64,000 nt of DNA from Nitrospira lenta (GTDB lineage: Bacteria > Nitrospirota > Nitrospiria > Nitrospirales > Nitrospiraceae), in the NCBI RefSeq assembly GCF_900403705.1, contig NZ_OUNR01000001.1, positions 682,001 through 746,000 of the forward strand, in the 5' to 3' direction. The translations under genes were made by a program, and so were the position numbers. The notes beneath the pieces are model-generated. The model ran no database searches. It was not told the origin of the DNA and saw only the letters and a program-made list of their open reading frames with translations. Shown here piece after piece: positions 33,303 through 55,229 of the stretch. The number at the start of each line of letters is the position of its first letter. Positions within the stretch are counted from its first letter, which is position 1.

Positions 33303-34304
33303 TTACTGGAGAGAACCTTTCTGAGCAACGTCAGATTGATTTCCCGTCAGTGCGAGACACCCCAACCCGATCCCGATCCAGACCAACTCGCGGAATCGCC
33401 GTAGCAGGGCGAAGGTAATCCCCGTCACATCCGAATAGCCGAAGGCTTGGAGCAACAGCAGATTGCCGCCGTCCTGCGCACCCAGGCTGCCGGGGATGAA
33501 GAACGTCCCGCCTTTGATGAAGACGGAGAGGGCTCCGATCGAGATTGCCGACCAGACATCGGCCGGACCACCGAGATAGTAGATGATCACGAACACTTCC
33601 AGCGCCTCAGCCAACCACCCCAGGAAATACAAACCAGTGGACGCATAGAACGCCCCCTGATGGCGAGTATAGAAATTCAGAATCGTCTGATCGAGCGCCC
33701 GCAGCTTGTCTTCCCGTGCTTCGAGAAAGCCGATCCGCATACCGAACTTCCGCAGCGTCTCCAGGGTCCAGGTAAAGAGGCCGCGCCGCTGCACGAACAC
33801 AAAGGCCATGGTCCCGAAGGCCAACAGCCCGATGCTCAGCAACCCTGCCGCCACGATTTGTCCCGACGAACCCTGCGCACCCAAAATCCAGAAGCCCAAC
33901 GCGATTCCTAAAAGAATAAACAGCACCTGAGCAATGGTCATGGTGGTCTTGGCAATGACGACGGAGGCCAACCCTTCCACCAACGGCACGCCGGACTTCT
34001 GCAACAGATACGCTTTCAGCGGTTCGCCGCCGACATACGCGGTCGGAGTCGTCATATTCACCACTTCACCGGCCGTGCGAACAGCCAAGACCCGCAGGAA
34101 CGAGACCGACTGTCCGGCCGGACCAAGCGTGATCTTCCACCCATAGGCCTCGACGGCATACATGACGAGGGAAGGAATGAGGATAACGCACAATGCCACC
34201 GGCCCGAGTCTGGTCGCAGCGTCATAAATATTCCCAGGACCGATGTGCCAGACAATGAGACCGAGCGTGAGGAAGCCGACGAGGAGGAGGATGACTCTCA
34301 GCAC
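33303..34304 (-). CDS. flippase-like integral membrane protein (LPG-synthase TM region / YbhN / HpnL-like)
   Basis: A 333-aa protein with about eight hydrophobic segments. It matches the lysylphosphatidylglycerol synthase transmembrane-region family: LRVILLLVGFLTLGLIVW at the N-terminus, TPTAYVGGEPLKAYLLQKSG near residue 90, and the late FIPGSLGAQDGGNLLLLQAFG segment near residue 275. Members without the synthase domain are thought to translocate lipids or polyprenyl intermediates. It begins with GTG, with an AGGA site about 11 bases upstream. It follows the CDP-alcohol phosphotransferase fusion across a palindromic repeat, so moving the product of that enzyme across the membrane is a fair guess. 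Confidence 0.8.
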   Translation of the reverse strand: MLRVILLLVGFLTLGLIVWHIGPGNIYDAATRLGPVALCVILIPSLVMYAVEAYGWKITLGPAGQSVSFLRVLAVRTAGEVVNMTTPTAYVGGEPLKAYLLQKSGVPLVEGLASVVIAKTTMTIAQVLFILLGIALGFWILGAQGSSGQIVAAGLLSIGLLAFGTMAFVFVQRRGLFTWTLETLRKFGMRIGFLEAREDKLRALDQTILNFYTRHQGAFYASTGLYFLGWLAEALEVFVIIYYLGGPADVWSAISIGALSVFIKGGTFFIPGSLGAQDGGNLLLLQAFGYSDVTGITFALLRRFRELVWIGIGLGCLALTGNQSDVAQKGSLQ

Positions 34305-34324
34305 GCGGATCGAGTCCTATCTCC

Positions 34325-34447
34325 GGGATGCTCAAAACTGTCATCCAGCGAGGCCGCAGGGTACGTAGCCCCCGAAGCGCACTGTGACTGGTACGTTGAG
34401 GGGGATGAGTAACCGAGAACGAAGCTGGGGGCAGTTTTCAGCATCCC
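34325..34447. repeat. intergenic palindromic repeat, copy 1
   Basis: A 123-base element with complementary ends: the left end GGATGCTCAAAACTG pairs with the right end CAGTTTTCAGCATCC, and an inner CCAGC pairs with GCTGG. Its layout (outer stem, CCAGC, then GAGGCCGCA, then GAGAACG, then GCTGG and outer stem) is the same as in the 54044-54165 copy, though stem bases differ. It ends one base from the stop codon of the minus-strand gene at 34449, so it may act as that gene's terminator or a processing site. Confidence 0.8.
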
Positions 34448-34448
34448 G

Positions 34449-35873
34449 CTATGCACGAGATCTTGCTGACGGACGAATCACCCACAACATCAGCGCAGTG
34501 AAGACCAGAGAGCCGGCTGACGCCATCCAGAGAAACCAATCCAACTTGCCGACCACCGCCGCGATCAGGACGATCACGGAAAAATCACGGCTGGCGACAT
34601 TCTTCAGCATGAACTCAGACCAGGCCGCATGGATCGGCGTCTTCCACCCACTCGCCGCCTTGATCTTCTGGGCCCGAGTCACCAAGACGAAAGACGCGGC
34701 GTTGCCGAGCACGGCAGCCGCACCCAACGCGAGCGGAATCCAGGCATCGGCCTGCCCGGCTGCTTGCTGGTACGCCCCCACGGCAATTCCGGCGAAGATG
34801 GCCATATGCACGACGTTGTCCATCGCGATATCGAGCCAGGCGCCGAACGCCGACTCCGTGAATGTGAGCCGGGCCACTTCCCCATCACAACAATCGATCA
34901 CCGCCGCAAATTGGAACAACAGCGCCGCCACAATAGCCGCTTCATACGTCCCAAGCCCAAATCCCACGGCGGCCAAGAGCCCAAGGACGGTCGCCACCAT
35001 CGTAATGGCGTTGGGGGAAGCCCCTATGGCCAGGAAGATTCGGGTGAACCAGCGAGAGACCTTGCGATTGAAGTAGCGATCGACGAATCCCTCGAACTCA
35101 CCTTTGAGCGAAGAGAATAACTTCCGTTCAGCGGCCGGAACCTCGGCCTGCGTCCGCACATCCTGATACCACTGCGAGGGATGCCCGTCCGTCCGCAGCA
35201 CCCGAACCCGTCCGTCGATTGCGGCCTGCTCAATCCATCGCCGAATCGGCATGGTTCCTGGAGGGGTGTGAGTCTCCTGCGCCGCGGCCATAAGACCGGC
35301 CGGCAGAACCAGAACATCCGCCGCAACCAGCAGCGCATCTTCGGCCCGGGACGATCCGAGGGCGAGAAGCCGTTCGGCCTGCACTTTGACCGAAACCCGC
35401 CAATCTCCTGCTGCCCGCTGCATGACCGGCTGCGCCACCAGAATCGCCTGTCCCTCTTGCACTCCGCGGCGCAGACTTTCGATCAGGCCGCGCGAGAACA
35501 CGCCGCGCACGCTCGCGACCAGGCAGAATCCATGAACTTCCGCCGCCATCGCTTCCCAGGTGCGCGGATCATCGAGCGGGAACTCCCGAATCGGCATCCA
35601 CCGCACAGGGATCGTCACGCGCGGCCCACGGCCTAACGCCTGCTTGAGTTGGTCTTCTTCAGGACCGGCGAGCACGATCAATTGCCGGATGCCGGCCCGC
35701 TGCAACGTGAGCACGGCGCGTTGAAACAGCCCGATCCCCACGACCTGCGTCAGAGGACCGGCACTGCCGGGGACACGTTCTAGGGATTCGCCGAAGACAC
35801 TGACCGACGGCAGCAGAATGGCGGTCGCCAGTCCCTGAACTTCCGCGCGATGTTGGATGAGACTTTCACTCAT
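34449..35873 (-). CDS. nucleotidyltransferase-like domain fused to CDP-alcohol phosphotransferase
   Basis: A 474-aa fusion. The C-terminal half (from about residue 255) is a CDP-alcohol phosphatidyltransferase with the full signature DGx2ARx8Gx3Dx3D, read as DGEVAR ... G ... D ... D in the VIDCCDGEVAR / FGAWLDIAMDN region, plus several membrane helices. The N-terminal half has the fold pattern of NTP transferases (LFQRAVLTLQRAGIRQLIVL) but lacks the GxGxRL...K signature. The architecture resembles inositol-phosphate cytidylyltransferase/DIPP synthase fusions. Here, next to a PntC-like gene, it probably moves a phosphonate or phospho group from a CDP/CMP donor to a lipid or glycan alcohol. The start is uncertain: ATG 35873 or GTG 35906. 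Confidence 0.8.
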   Translation of the reverse strand: MSESLIQHRAEVQGLATAILLPSVSVFGESLERVPGSAGPLTQVVGIGLFQRAVLTLQRAGIRQLIVLAGPEEDQLKQALGRGPRVTIPVRWMPIREFPLDDPRTWEAMAAEVHGFCLVASVRGVFSRGLIESLRRGVQEGQAILVAQPVMQRAAGDWRVSVKVQAERLLALGSSRAEDALLVAADVLVLPAGLMAAAQETHTPPGTMPIRRWIEQAAIDGRVRVLRTDGHPSQWYQDVRTQAEVPAAERKLFSSLKGEFEGFVDRYFNRKVSRWFTRIFLAIGASPNAITMVATVLGLLAAVGFGLGTYEAAIVAALLFQFAAVIDCCDGEVARLTFTESAFGAWLDIAMDNVVHMAIFAGIAVGAYQQAAGQADAWIPLALGAAAVLGNAASFVLVTRAQKIKAASGWKTPIHAAWSEFMLKNVASRDFSVIVLIAAVVGKLDWFLWMASAGSLVFTALMLWVIRPSARSRA

Positions 35874-35940
35874 TGGATAACTCGGCGCTCGCTGTGCGTC
35901 ATGCACAGAACCGATGAAACATCACACACACATCAATGTC

Positions 35941-52864: not shown

Positions 52865-53974
52865 TCAATACGACAGGGTCTTCCGTGCGGTCGGCTGTTC
52901 GCTCTGTTGTTCGACACGGACGGACACCCGGCCGACGATACGGCCGTCTTCTGTTTCTACATCCACGCGCCAGTCGCCAGGATCGAGGCGCTGTTTGAAC
53001 GAGTAGGCCCGATAGCCGCCGTCGCGTCCGCCTGAAATCTTGATGGGAATCCTGTCGGCATGAGTGAAGGAGTGGCTGCTGTCCGAACGAAAGTACCAAT
53101 GGTGATAGACCGTCGTGTTCAGCGCCACCGGCGCGAACACGGCGGTGAAGCAGTAGATCGGCTCATCGGCAGGGAACGGATTTTCTGACCGTTTCCAGAC
53201 TTCGTACCATTTCCGATCATAGGTCAAAAGAAAGTGATCGCCCTGCCGCTGCACCTCGCGATAGATGCCGCCGAACTTCATTGAGAGCGGCACCGGCGGA
53301 ATCCAGTTCAGAAAATAGAAGCCGACCAGCAGAGCGATCAGCCCGAACGCCGGAGCCGTCACGCCGACGGCTTCGCGCCTGGAGCGATCCGGATTGTTGC
53401 GATAGATCAAATGGACGACCCGAAAGGTGACCAGTACGGTCAATCCAGCGCCAGCGAGAAACACGACCAGGTTCATCAGCCCGGTCATGACCGGGAGAAA
53501 GAACGTGAAAAAAGCTAAACACACCAGGGCATAGAGACTGATCAACAGGCGCAAACTCGACAGGCGATCGCGCAGAAACTCGTTCCCGACCAGCACTAGA
53601 ATCAACAGGGCAAAGAAGATCGCGCTGCTCGTCAGGGTCGCGCTGCGGGAATAGAAGATCGCGTAGGCGCTGAACAATCCGCCCAAAAGAAACTGCACCG
53701 CCATTGGGTAATAGGGTCTGGCATGAAGCACCCAGCGGGCAAATGGCGAGAGCACGGCCAAGTGCTCTCGATCCGGCGGCGGCTCAATCCCCAACCGTCC
53801 GGTCAGCACAATGAGCACGCCCAGCAGCAACAAATAGATCAACAGCAACAAATTGTCCTGCAGCCGGTCGATGCGCGTGAGGGTGAGGGTGTCGTACGAA
53901 ACGCCGGAGAGAAAAAACACCGCCGGCATGAAGGGCTTGGTCAGGAGAGATTGGACTTTCGCGAGCGGGCTCAT
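52865..53974 (-). CDS. membrane protein with C-terminal DUF2914 domain
   Basis: A 369-aa protein with about seven or eight hydrophobic segments in the first 240 residues, and a C-terminal soluble beta-rich domain, IYCFTAVFAPVALNTTVYHHWYF to LDPGDWRVDVETEDGRIVGRVSVRV, which matches DUF2914. The domain contains Trp-His pairs and lies outside the membrane. Function is unknown. Start choice: ATG 53974 or GTG 53980. It lies after a palindromic repeat on its 5' side. Confidence 0.8.
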   Translation of the reverse strand: MSPLAKVQSLLTKPFMPAVFFLSGVSYDTLTLTRIDRLQDNLLLLIYLLLLGVLIVLTGRLGIEPPPDREHLAVLSPFARWVLHARPYYPMAVQFLLGGLFSAYAIFYSRSATLTSSAIFFALLILVLVGNEFLRDRLSSLRLLISLYALVCLAFFTFFLPVMTGLMNLVVFLAGAGLTVLVTFRVVHLIYRNNPDRSRREAVGVTAPAFGLIALLVGFYFLNWIPPVPLSMKFGGIYREVQRQGDHFLLTYDRKWYEVWKRSENPFPADEPIYCFTAVFAPVALNTTVYHHWYFRSDSSHSFTHADRIPIKISGGRDGGYRAYSFKQRLDPGDWRVDVETEDGRIVGRVSVRVEQQSEQPTARKTLSY

Positions 53975-54043
53975 GCCCACACTGTGCGAAATCAGACGGG
54001 TTTCTTCAATAGAAAATTGGTTCTTGAGGAGCAGCTTGATCGA

Positions 54044-54165
54044 GGTTGCTCAAACCGGCTGTCCAGCAAGGCCGCAACGAGCAGGACCCCGAGGCGTACT
54101 CTCCGCCGGTACGCCGCAGGGGAACTGCGAAGTGAGAACGCCGCTGGCAGCCGGTTTCAGCAACC
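54044..54165. repeat. intergenic palindromic repeat, copy 2
   Basis: A 122-base element, same layout as the one at 34325. The left end GGTTGCTCAAACCGGCTG pairs with the right end CAGCCGGTTTCAGCAACC; the inner CCAGC pairs with GCTGG. The GGCCGCA and GAGAACG boxes are conserved. It ends two bases from the stop of the minus-strand gene at 54168. Stem bases differ from copy 1 on both sides together, so pairing is preserved. Confidence 0.82.
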
Positions 54166-54167
54166 TG

Positions 54168-55229
54168 TTAGACGAAGGCGGGAAGCGGAGCATACATCAT
54201 CGGGTACCCGATCAGACGCTCCAACCATGGCCCCATGGCTTCTTCCTTGAGCGGAGCCCGGTTCAGCCGAGCCTCGATCTGGAATTGTCCGTTCAATCCG
54301 ACGATGCCGATGATCGCCGAGGCATCGTCCCCTTCGGGCAAGACCGCCTGCGTCTGAAACTCACAGAGAGTGGCATACAAGCGCCCATCCGGCTGGATCG
54401 CCTCCAAGACTTCCGGCAGCTCGTCCAAAGGACAGTGGACCGAACAGCGATAGGCAAAGCGAGCCCCCGGTTCAATCGCGGCAAAATCTGCCAGCGCCTC
54501 TTCTGAAAATCCCGTCAGGTACGTCCGCACGCCGGCCGGTTCCTGCGCAAACGTGGCTGCCAGCTTGCTGGCCGGCACCAGGAACTCAAAGGAGTCGGTC
54601 GTGTTGTACTCGAATTGGCAGGGGCCGAAGGCGTCGGGCCAGGAACAGAAAAAGGGGGTCGCAGGATCGGCCGGACGCAGGATGACCTGATCCTTCTCGA
54701 TCAATGTTTCGATGGGAAGATCCAGAATGGTGATGGCGTCGAGAAAGGCCGCCCGCCGTTCGTCCAGCCATTCCGTGCGGTCGCCGTCCGCGCGCGTTTC
54801 CCCCGGCGTGATCACTTCTGTCGTCTGCAGGCGGATGCGCAGGAAAGAATGGGCGTGACGGAACCCCAGCCAGAACATGCTGCGTGACTCATGCCGTCGC
54901 AACGGCTCGCGAATCCGCCAGGGGTGGCTCACCGAACAATAGGCGCCGACATCCTGGTAGCGTTGAAAGACGGTATGGTAGGCGCCGGCCAGCAAGAAGA
55001 AATCGCCCCGCCAGCCCTCGCGCACATGCACGAGCGTGACGTCTTCCGTGGCCCATGGGTCGAGCTGATCGAATTCGTCGGGCGCGGACACGGTCCACTC
55101 CTCGACGTAACAGATCACATCTTGCGCGGGCACCGCCGGCTTGAGGCCTAACGCCGCCAGCCGTTCTCCGACCGCCAGGACCTGGCTGAACGTCAACGGA
55201 GTCGTCGTTTCCCAGCGCCGCTCACGCAC
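54168..55229 (-). CDS. hypothetical protein
   Basis: A 353-aa soluble protein with no signal peptide or membrane segment. It is mainly mixed alpha/beta, with aromatic-rich stretches (RSMFWLGFRHAHSFLRIRL) and an acidic C-terminal half. I recognise no family. GTG 55229 has a GGGAG site ten bases upstream. It directly follows a lipoprotein gene by 30 bases. The sequence is even and gene-like throughout, so it is almost certainly expressed. Confidence 0.7.
   Translation of the reverse strand: MRERRWETTTPLTFSQVLAVGERLAALGLKPAVPAQDVICYVEEWTVSAPDEFDQLDPWATEDVTLVHVREGWRGDFFLLAGAYHTVFQRYQDVGAYCSVSHPWRIREPLRRHESRSMFWLGFRHAHSFLRIRLQTTEVITPGETRADGDRTEWLDERRAAFLDAITILDLPIETLIEKDQVILRPADPATPFFCSWPDAFGPCQFEYNTTDSFEFLVPASKLAATFAQEPAGVRTYLTGFSEEALADFAAIEPGARFAYRCSVHCPLDELPEVLEAIQPDGRLYATLCEFQTQAVLPEGDDASAIIGIVGLNGQFQIEARLNRAPLKEEAMGPWLERLIGYPMMYAPLPAFV

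Follow-up and report, generated by a model that had tools for sequence, protein, structure and literature searches.

Why should two intergenic palindromes, alike in their inner boxes and different in their outer stems, each come to rest beside the stop codon of a minus-strand gene? Both lie in the window, by which we mean the whole 64,000-nucleotide stretch of Nitrospira lenta DNA analysed here (Table 1). The original prediction offered two answers, an RNA structure under selection, such as a terminator or an RNA-end stabiliser, or a mobile element that targets such sites.

Table 1. Features at the two window copies; genes follow the analysis's own codon-usage caller.
Feature	Position	Strand	Remarks
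Solo hairpin, copy 1	34325..34447	+	~123 nt; covariance model 115.4 bits
Conserved 5' box, copy 1	34345..34358	+	CCAGCGAGGCCGCA; alignment
Conserved 3' box, copy 1	34415..34428	+	GAGAACGAAGCTGG; alignment
Possible left target duplicate, copy 1	34317..34320	.	CTAT; 4 nt from hairpin; equals the 4-mer at 34449-34452
Right-hand target, copy 1	34449..34452	.	CTAT (YTAN); minus-strand gene ends with CTA (stop TAG) at 34449-34451
Gene with stop abutting copy 1	34449..35906	-	5' end 35873 or 35906; ORF list and codon-usage call
Gene downstream of copy 1, same direction	33303..34304	-	start 20 nt from copy 1
Solo hairpin, copy 2	54043..54166	+	~124 nt; layout as copy 1; covariance model 113.7 bits
Conserved 5' box, copy 2	54063..54076	+	CCAGCAAGGCCGCA; alignment
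Conserved 3' box, copy 2	54134..54147	+	GAGAACGCCGCTGG; alignment
Right-hand target, copy 2	54168..54171	.	TTAG (YTAR); minus-strand gene ends with TTA (stop TAA) at 54168-54170
Gene with stop abutting copy 2	54168..55229	-	codon-usage call
Gene downstream of copy 2, same direction	52865..53980	-	start ~68 nt from copy 2

The layout first described holds in both copies, which share the boxes CCAGC-R-AGGCCGCA and GAGAACG..GCTGG; the second copy is better bounded as in Table 1 than at 54044-54165. Copy 1 is built of an outer stem, an invariant C.C mismatch, an A/T-tract stem and a CCAGC/GCTGG stem, followed by a conserved internal loop, a variable stem and an apical hairpin. The compensating stem changes were also borne out: the outer stem reads GGATGCT/AGCATCC in one copy and GGTTGCT/AGCAACC in the other, the second stem AAAACTG/CAGTTTT and AAACCGGCTG/CAGCCGGTTT, and each pairs within its own copy. 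Folding energies are -63.6 kcal/mol for copy 1 (z -5.7) and -76.4 kcal/mol for copy 2 (z -8.9). The adjacency to stop codons is exact, as both copies end 1 nt before the stop of the minus-strand gene. At copy 1 the right-hand tetranucleotide may have a partner on the left, a match expected by chance in ~1% of copies within 10 nt and thus only suggestive; no left duplicate was found at copy 2.

The likeness of the two copies is not due to chance, since DNA searches of their own genome with each as query returned 35 and 42 matches, and a covariance model (R1), trained on 34 full copies, found about 50 strong ones there. Members of the family are ~121 nt long, and genomes of nitrite-oxidising Nitrospira-type bacteria carry about 50-120 of them each, with 116 matches in N. 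defluvii. A search of relatives found it in 37 of 39 genomes (own included). Wider sampling of the phylum gave matches in 129 of 295 genomes, among them 78 of the 79 from the same taxonomic family. Named genomes recovered by a motif scan were nearly all Nitrospira/Nitrospirae records, with a few from Desulfobacterota and one Nitrospinota bin; a match in a Desulfovibrio bin (L188) had no score with the covariance model and was treated as chance. Rfam gave no family at its gathering score, and only unrelated weak matches outside the hairpins or below threshold (E<=5).

Covariation, expected from the two window copies, proved strong. Among the 34 copies, 87.5% of cells pair (73% in shuffles), changes on both sides occur in 33 of 43 pairs (21 in shuffles), and sliding the stem partners abolishes the signal. 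These copies show little or no variation at the outer-stem C.C mismatch, in the GTAC cap and in large parts of the AGGCCGCA / GAGAACG internal loop. Long imperfect palindromes are subject to template-switch correction, which could make paired changes in the place of selection, and one copy (C12:315381) does have a perfect inner palindrome. We nevertheless consider this origin of the covariation very improbable, as the C.C mismatch and internal loops are kept in all or nearly all of the 34 copies, G.T pairs persist, and the conservation of loops in place, described below, would be left unexplained.

The origin of the hairpin is best seen in N. defluvii, where many near-identical copies in differing surroundings have ~80 nt in common to the left of the hairpin, and their right sides diverge straight after CCTG and the target. 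These full units begin with CAGGYTGCGGAAAAACTC and carry terminal inverted repeats, CAGGYTGCGGAAAAAC on the left and, read on the other strand, CAGGATGC(G/T)GAAAAA on the right. The tetranucleotide preceding the left end almost always recurs after the right end, and the two vary together (CTAG, CTAA, CTAC, CTAT, TTAG). About 20 loci of other Nitrospira also carry the unit, the left end lying 74-80 nt away from the hairpin; dozens of copies from many species have terminal repeats and, at a constant 76-79 nt, 4-bp YTAN duplications that match. Because the ~200-bp unit is short, non-coding and present in many copies, with terminal inverted repeats and 4-bp YTAR-type duplications, we identify it as a non-autonomous IS5-type MITE, and the origin of the hairpin as its right half is well supported. 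A 1.3-kb element of N. defluvii (2773271-2774592) has the same ends as the MITE (15-18 nt identical) and TTAG on both sides, and its protein matches NCBIfam IS5_4 (NF033581) at 278.9 bits, against a cut-off of 140. The target duplication of IS5 is YTAR (PMC10359306). We infer that an IS5-type transposase moves the MITE in trans; the window's own genome gave no match to the IS5_4 transposase. A possible autonomous element with a hairpin end at L193 was rejected, its left end being that of a truncated unit and no transposase being present. In the window's own genome, CGGAAAAA-type and CTGAAAAA-type terminal-repeat ends lie 1.5 kb apart and face outward at C22:50741-52261.

Neither window copy, and hardly any other copy in their genome, has the left end of the full unit. 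Among such solo hairpins, neither a left duplication at a fixed distance nor a fixed left boundary was found. Some solos keep faint remnants of the left arm at the expected offset, with none on the other side. In addition, a copy with a 36-nt left part in a sister species (G022:1286580) has CTAG on both sides at a site where the window's genome has a single CTAG. These remnants and this filled and empty pair indicate that solos probably derive from full units, and by inference the window copies do too, so that they are best read as old, retained solo hairpins. The empty sites of most other differences between the two genomes were unreadable, their intergenic left sides being too diverged.

The family also takes other forms. 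In N. defluvii (FP929003), hairpins stand head to tail ~130-165 bp apart (2715448, 2715579, 2715710), with similar rows at 423838-424186 and 1724058-1724345. The same genome has three 181-nt forms (650186-650366, 1447926-1448106, 1821010-1821190) and several of ~80 nt, derivatives by insertion or deletion that each occur more than once. A variant of Nitrospirales bacterium NPIRA03 with a common 24-nt insert in the 5' arm (L179, L182, L198, L207, L227) is found at many places, so the altered copy must itself have multiplied; its flanks are not YTAR. In Desulfobacterota, L201 (286-705, Olavius algarvensis Delta 4 endosymbiont) and L195 (1934-2053) have the hairpin core with different, longer outer stems, and the copies of L201 are in tandem.

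Does the MITE aim for stop codons, as the second of the original answers would have it? The mobile element stands, while its proposed target does not. Full units of N. defluvii are stop-adjacent in 3 of 23 cases, against a chance expectation of 9% (from YTAR sites in sampled G022 DNA where an insertion would be viable or harmless), which points to insertion without a preference for stops beyond YTAR. We therefore rejected stop codons as the direct target: the duplicated bases vary together as YTAN, and the stops beside solos (65 TAG, 18 TAA and 14 TGA, in genomes where TGA is the commonest stop overall) show the excess of TAG that a CTAG-like (YTAR) target predicts. Solos behave differently from full units. 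Tabulation of their distances and orientations placed 40 of 71 in N. defluvii and 27 of 49 in G022 (55-56%) within 0-3 nt after a stop, far above the YTAR chance (p = 1e-23 and 4e-16, respectively) and above the full units of N. defluvii (Fisher p=2.6e-4); a random noncoding point is stop-adjacent in 0.8% of cases. Moreover, convergent gaps hold more solos than expected (26/116, where such gaps make up 9% of gene pairs) and divergent gaps fewer (7/116, where they make up 12%).

One could speculate that this pattern is a filter of survival, the solos being old insertions of a selfish MITE at harmless places just after stops, with no function. An insertion beside a stop leaves the gene intact, the recent, intact units have no stop preference beyond YTAR, and no terminator motif was found at the window copies. 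We nonetheless think this reading unlikely. Other non-coding YTAR sites should be about equally harmless, yet solos at stops are six-fold over expectation, and the hairpins are conserved where they stand. Of the ten sites common to the window's genome and G022, seven have hairpins with 89-99% identity, compared with 50-72% at fourfold-degenerate sites of the neighbouring genes, and the changes in place tend to preserve pairing. These seven are conserved above the neutral rate, with copying between copies a residual alternative source of the likeness. The hairpins at the other three common sites, including copy 2, differ (65-71% identical), which suggests replacement or repeated insertion; copy 2 (L082) and G022:1923158 (L138) occupy one stop-adjacent site with hairpins only 66% alike.

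Taken together, the excess at stops beyond the target, the enrichment in convergent gaps and the conservation above the neutral rate support selection on structure at gene 3' ends, and in this sense the first of the original answers is upheld in part. On its classical form, an intrinsic terminator, the signs are mixed: a scan for a GC-rich stem directly before a T run found none at either window copy, but in the 34-copy alignment a GC-rich inner stem is followed a few bases on by TTTT(T) on both strands. The hairpin has been retained, and probably recruited or selected, at gene 3' ends, where its function would lie in transcript ends.

Orientation adds a further aspect. In 136 of 154 copies the plus strand of the hairpin, antisense to the abutted gene, has the better fold of the two strands, and solos follow GC skew, hence the replication strand, in 56 of 71 cases in N. 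defluvii and 39 of 49 in G022 (79-80%). GC skew is largely independent of gene strand in these genomes, and solos away from stops follow it as well (24/31 and 17/22), a bias that a pure 3'-end role does not predict and that counts against our preferred explanation, as do the better fold of the antisense strand, the missing left ends and left duplications of solos, the differing hairpins at three common sites and the lack of a terminator-like pattern at the window copies. Full units have no such bias (13/23), although they differ from solos at a borderline level (Fisher p=0.055); the bias therefore seems to come from events after insertion. One-orientation clusters of hairpins within 15-25 kb, partly syntenic, are found at C20:138266-152655 of the window's genome and at G022:1285747-1310764.

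The same features could be taken to mean that solos are a separate mobile element, inserted as single-stranded DNA in the lagging-strand template, one nucleotide to the 3' side of YTAR, in the manner of REP/RAYT or IS200/IS605-like elements, with the full MITE a secondary composite. The strand of solos follows GC skew independently of gene strand, their YTAR is one-sided with no fixed left duplication, and one strand folds better. We hold this quite improbable, because the recent N. defluvii units lack orientation bias and have two-sided duplications with terminal repeats, some solos retain left-arm remnants, there is no GTAG tag at the hairpin base, and the three Y1 transposase matches of the window's genome, two of them broken or partial, are far from any copy. 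These matches (C1:101126, 107090 and 120009; L061-L063), one of which is full-length with no internal stop, lie at 101-120 kb of contig C1, and the nearest hairpin-model match on that contig is at 257 kb. A REP/RAYT system in particular was rejected, as the hairpin has YCGC before it and GYTAR after it, with no GTAG/GTGG tag, and the Y1 transposases are remote and partly broken.

The length, the imperfect palindrome, the place just after stops and a folding strand antisense to the gene would also suit attC-like recombination sites of a dispersed integron. We give this idea almost no credence, since base counts of the flanks reveal no RYYYAAC/GTTRRRY core pair at the hairpin ends and what moves is not a gene cassette but the hairpin together with ~77 nt, bounded by terminal repeats and 4-bp duplications. 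A more tentative thought, doubtful but worth keeping in mind, concerns Desulfobacterales, where the core is kept and the outer stems are unrelated. The hairpin core (the GGCCGCA / GAGAACG loop, the variable stem and the GTAC..GTAC cap) might be an ancient functional module of Nitrospirota and some Desulfobacterota, captured and spread by different transposons with entirely different outer stems; hosts would keep it at gene ends, with a fixed orientation to replication, because its folded form is recognised by a protein or by the transcription machinery.

We favour, with somewhat better than even confidence, a non-autonomous MITE of the IS5 type; its hairpin has stayed on at the 3' ends of genes, probably under selection. 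An IS5-type transposase would mobilise the MITE in trans and insert it at YTAR with a 4-bp duplication. Because the hairpin side abuts YTAR, and YTAG and YTAA contain stop codons, a fraction of insertions fall 1 nt after a stop. The left half would then decay, and hairpins at gene 3' ends would be retained by selection as a bidirectional 3'-end structure, for transcription end or RNA-end protection. Loss of the copies whose stable fold lies on the exposed lagging-strand template is a suggested cause of the orientation bias.

A transposon fragment thus appears to have been turned into genome-wide gene-end structures in a major group of nitrite oxidisers, and the stages, from intact recent insertions through decaying copies to solo hairpins that have been conserved, are open to direct comparison. 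The family offers a testable case of a mobile element recruited for RNA 3'-end formation or stability, and its recognition should help to annotate dozens of unexplained repeats per Nitrospira genome. No published description of it was found in the open-access literature searched.

Several known systems resemble it in part. ERIC elements (IRUs) are imperfect palindromes of ~127 bp, likewise intergenic and dispersed. At gene 3' ends they can alter mRNA levels (PMC10969869). No sequence relation to them was noticed, and the Nitrospira hairpin differs in its position, with a neighbouring gene's stop 1 nt away, and in its larger parent unit. Correia elements (CREE) make TA duplications and have different ends and structure. 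They too are dispersed and MITE-type, and their transcripts are processed at the hairpin (PMC10969869). REP/BIME sequences with RAYT are also palindromes close to stop codons, and a REP that lies no more than 15 nt from a stop can influence translation (PMC12306157). REPs, however, are 20-40 nt long with a GTAG-type tag and a Y1 transposase, in contrast to a hairpin of ~121 nt with parent-unit terminal repeats, YTAR duplications and a DDE transposase. IS5-family MITEs match the Nitrospira unit in being short and geneless, in the 4-bp YTAR duplications and in ends that agree, over 15-18 nt, with those of an IS5-family element of their genome; what sets the Nitrospira unit apart from them is its one-sided, large, deeply conserved and asymmetric hairpin module, which outlives the rest of the unit and has spread through a phylum.
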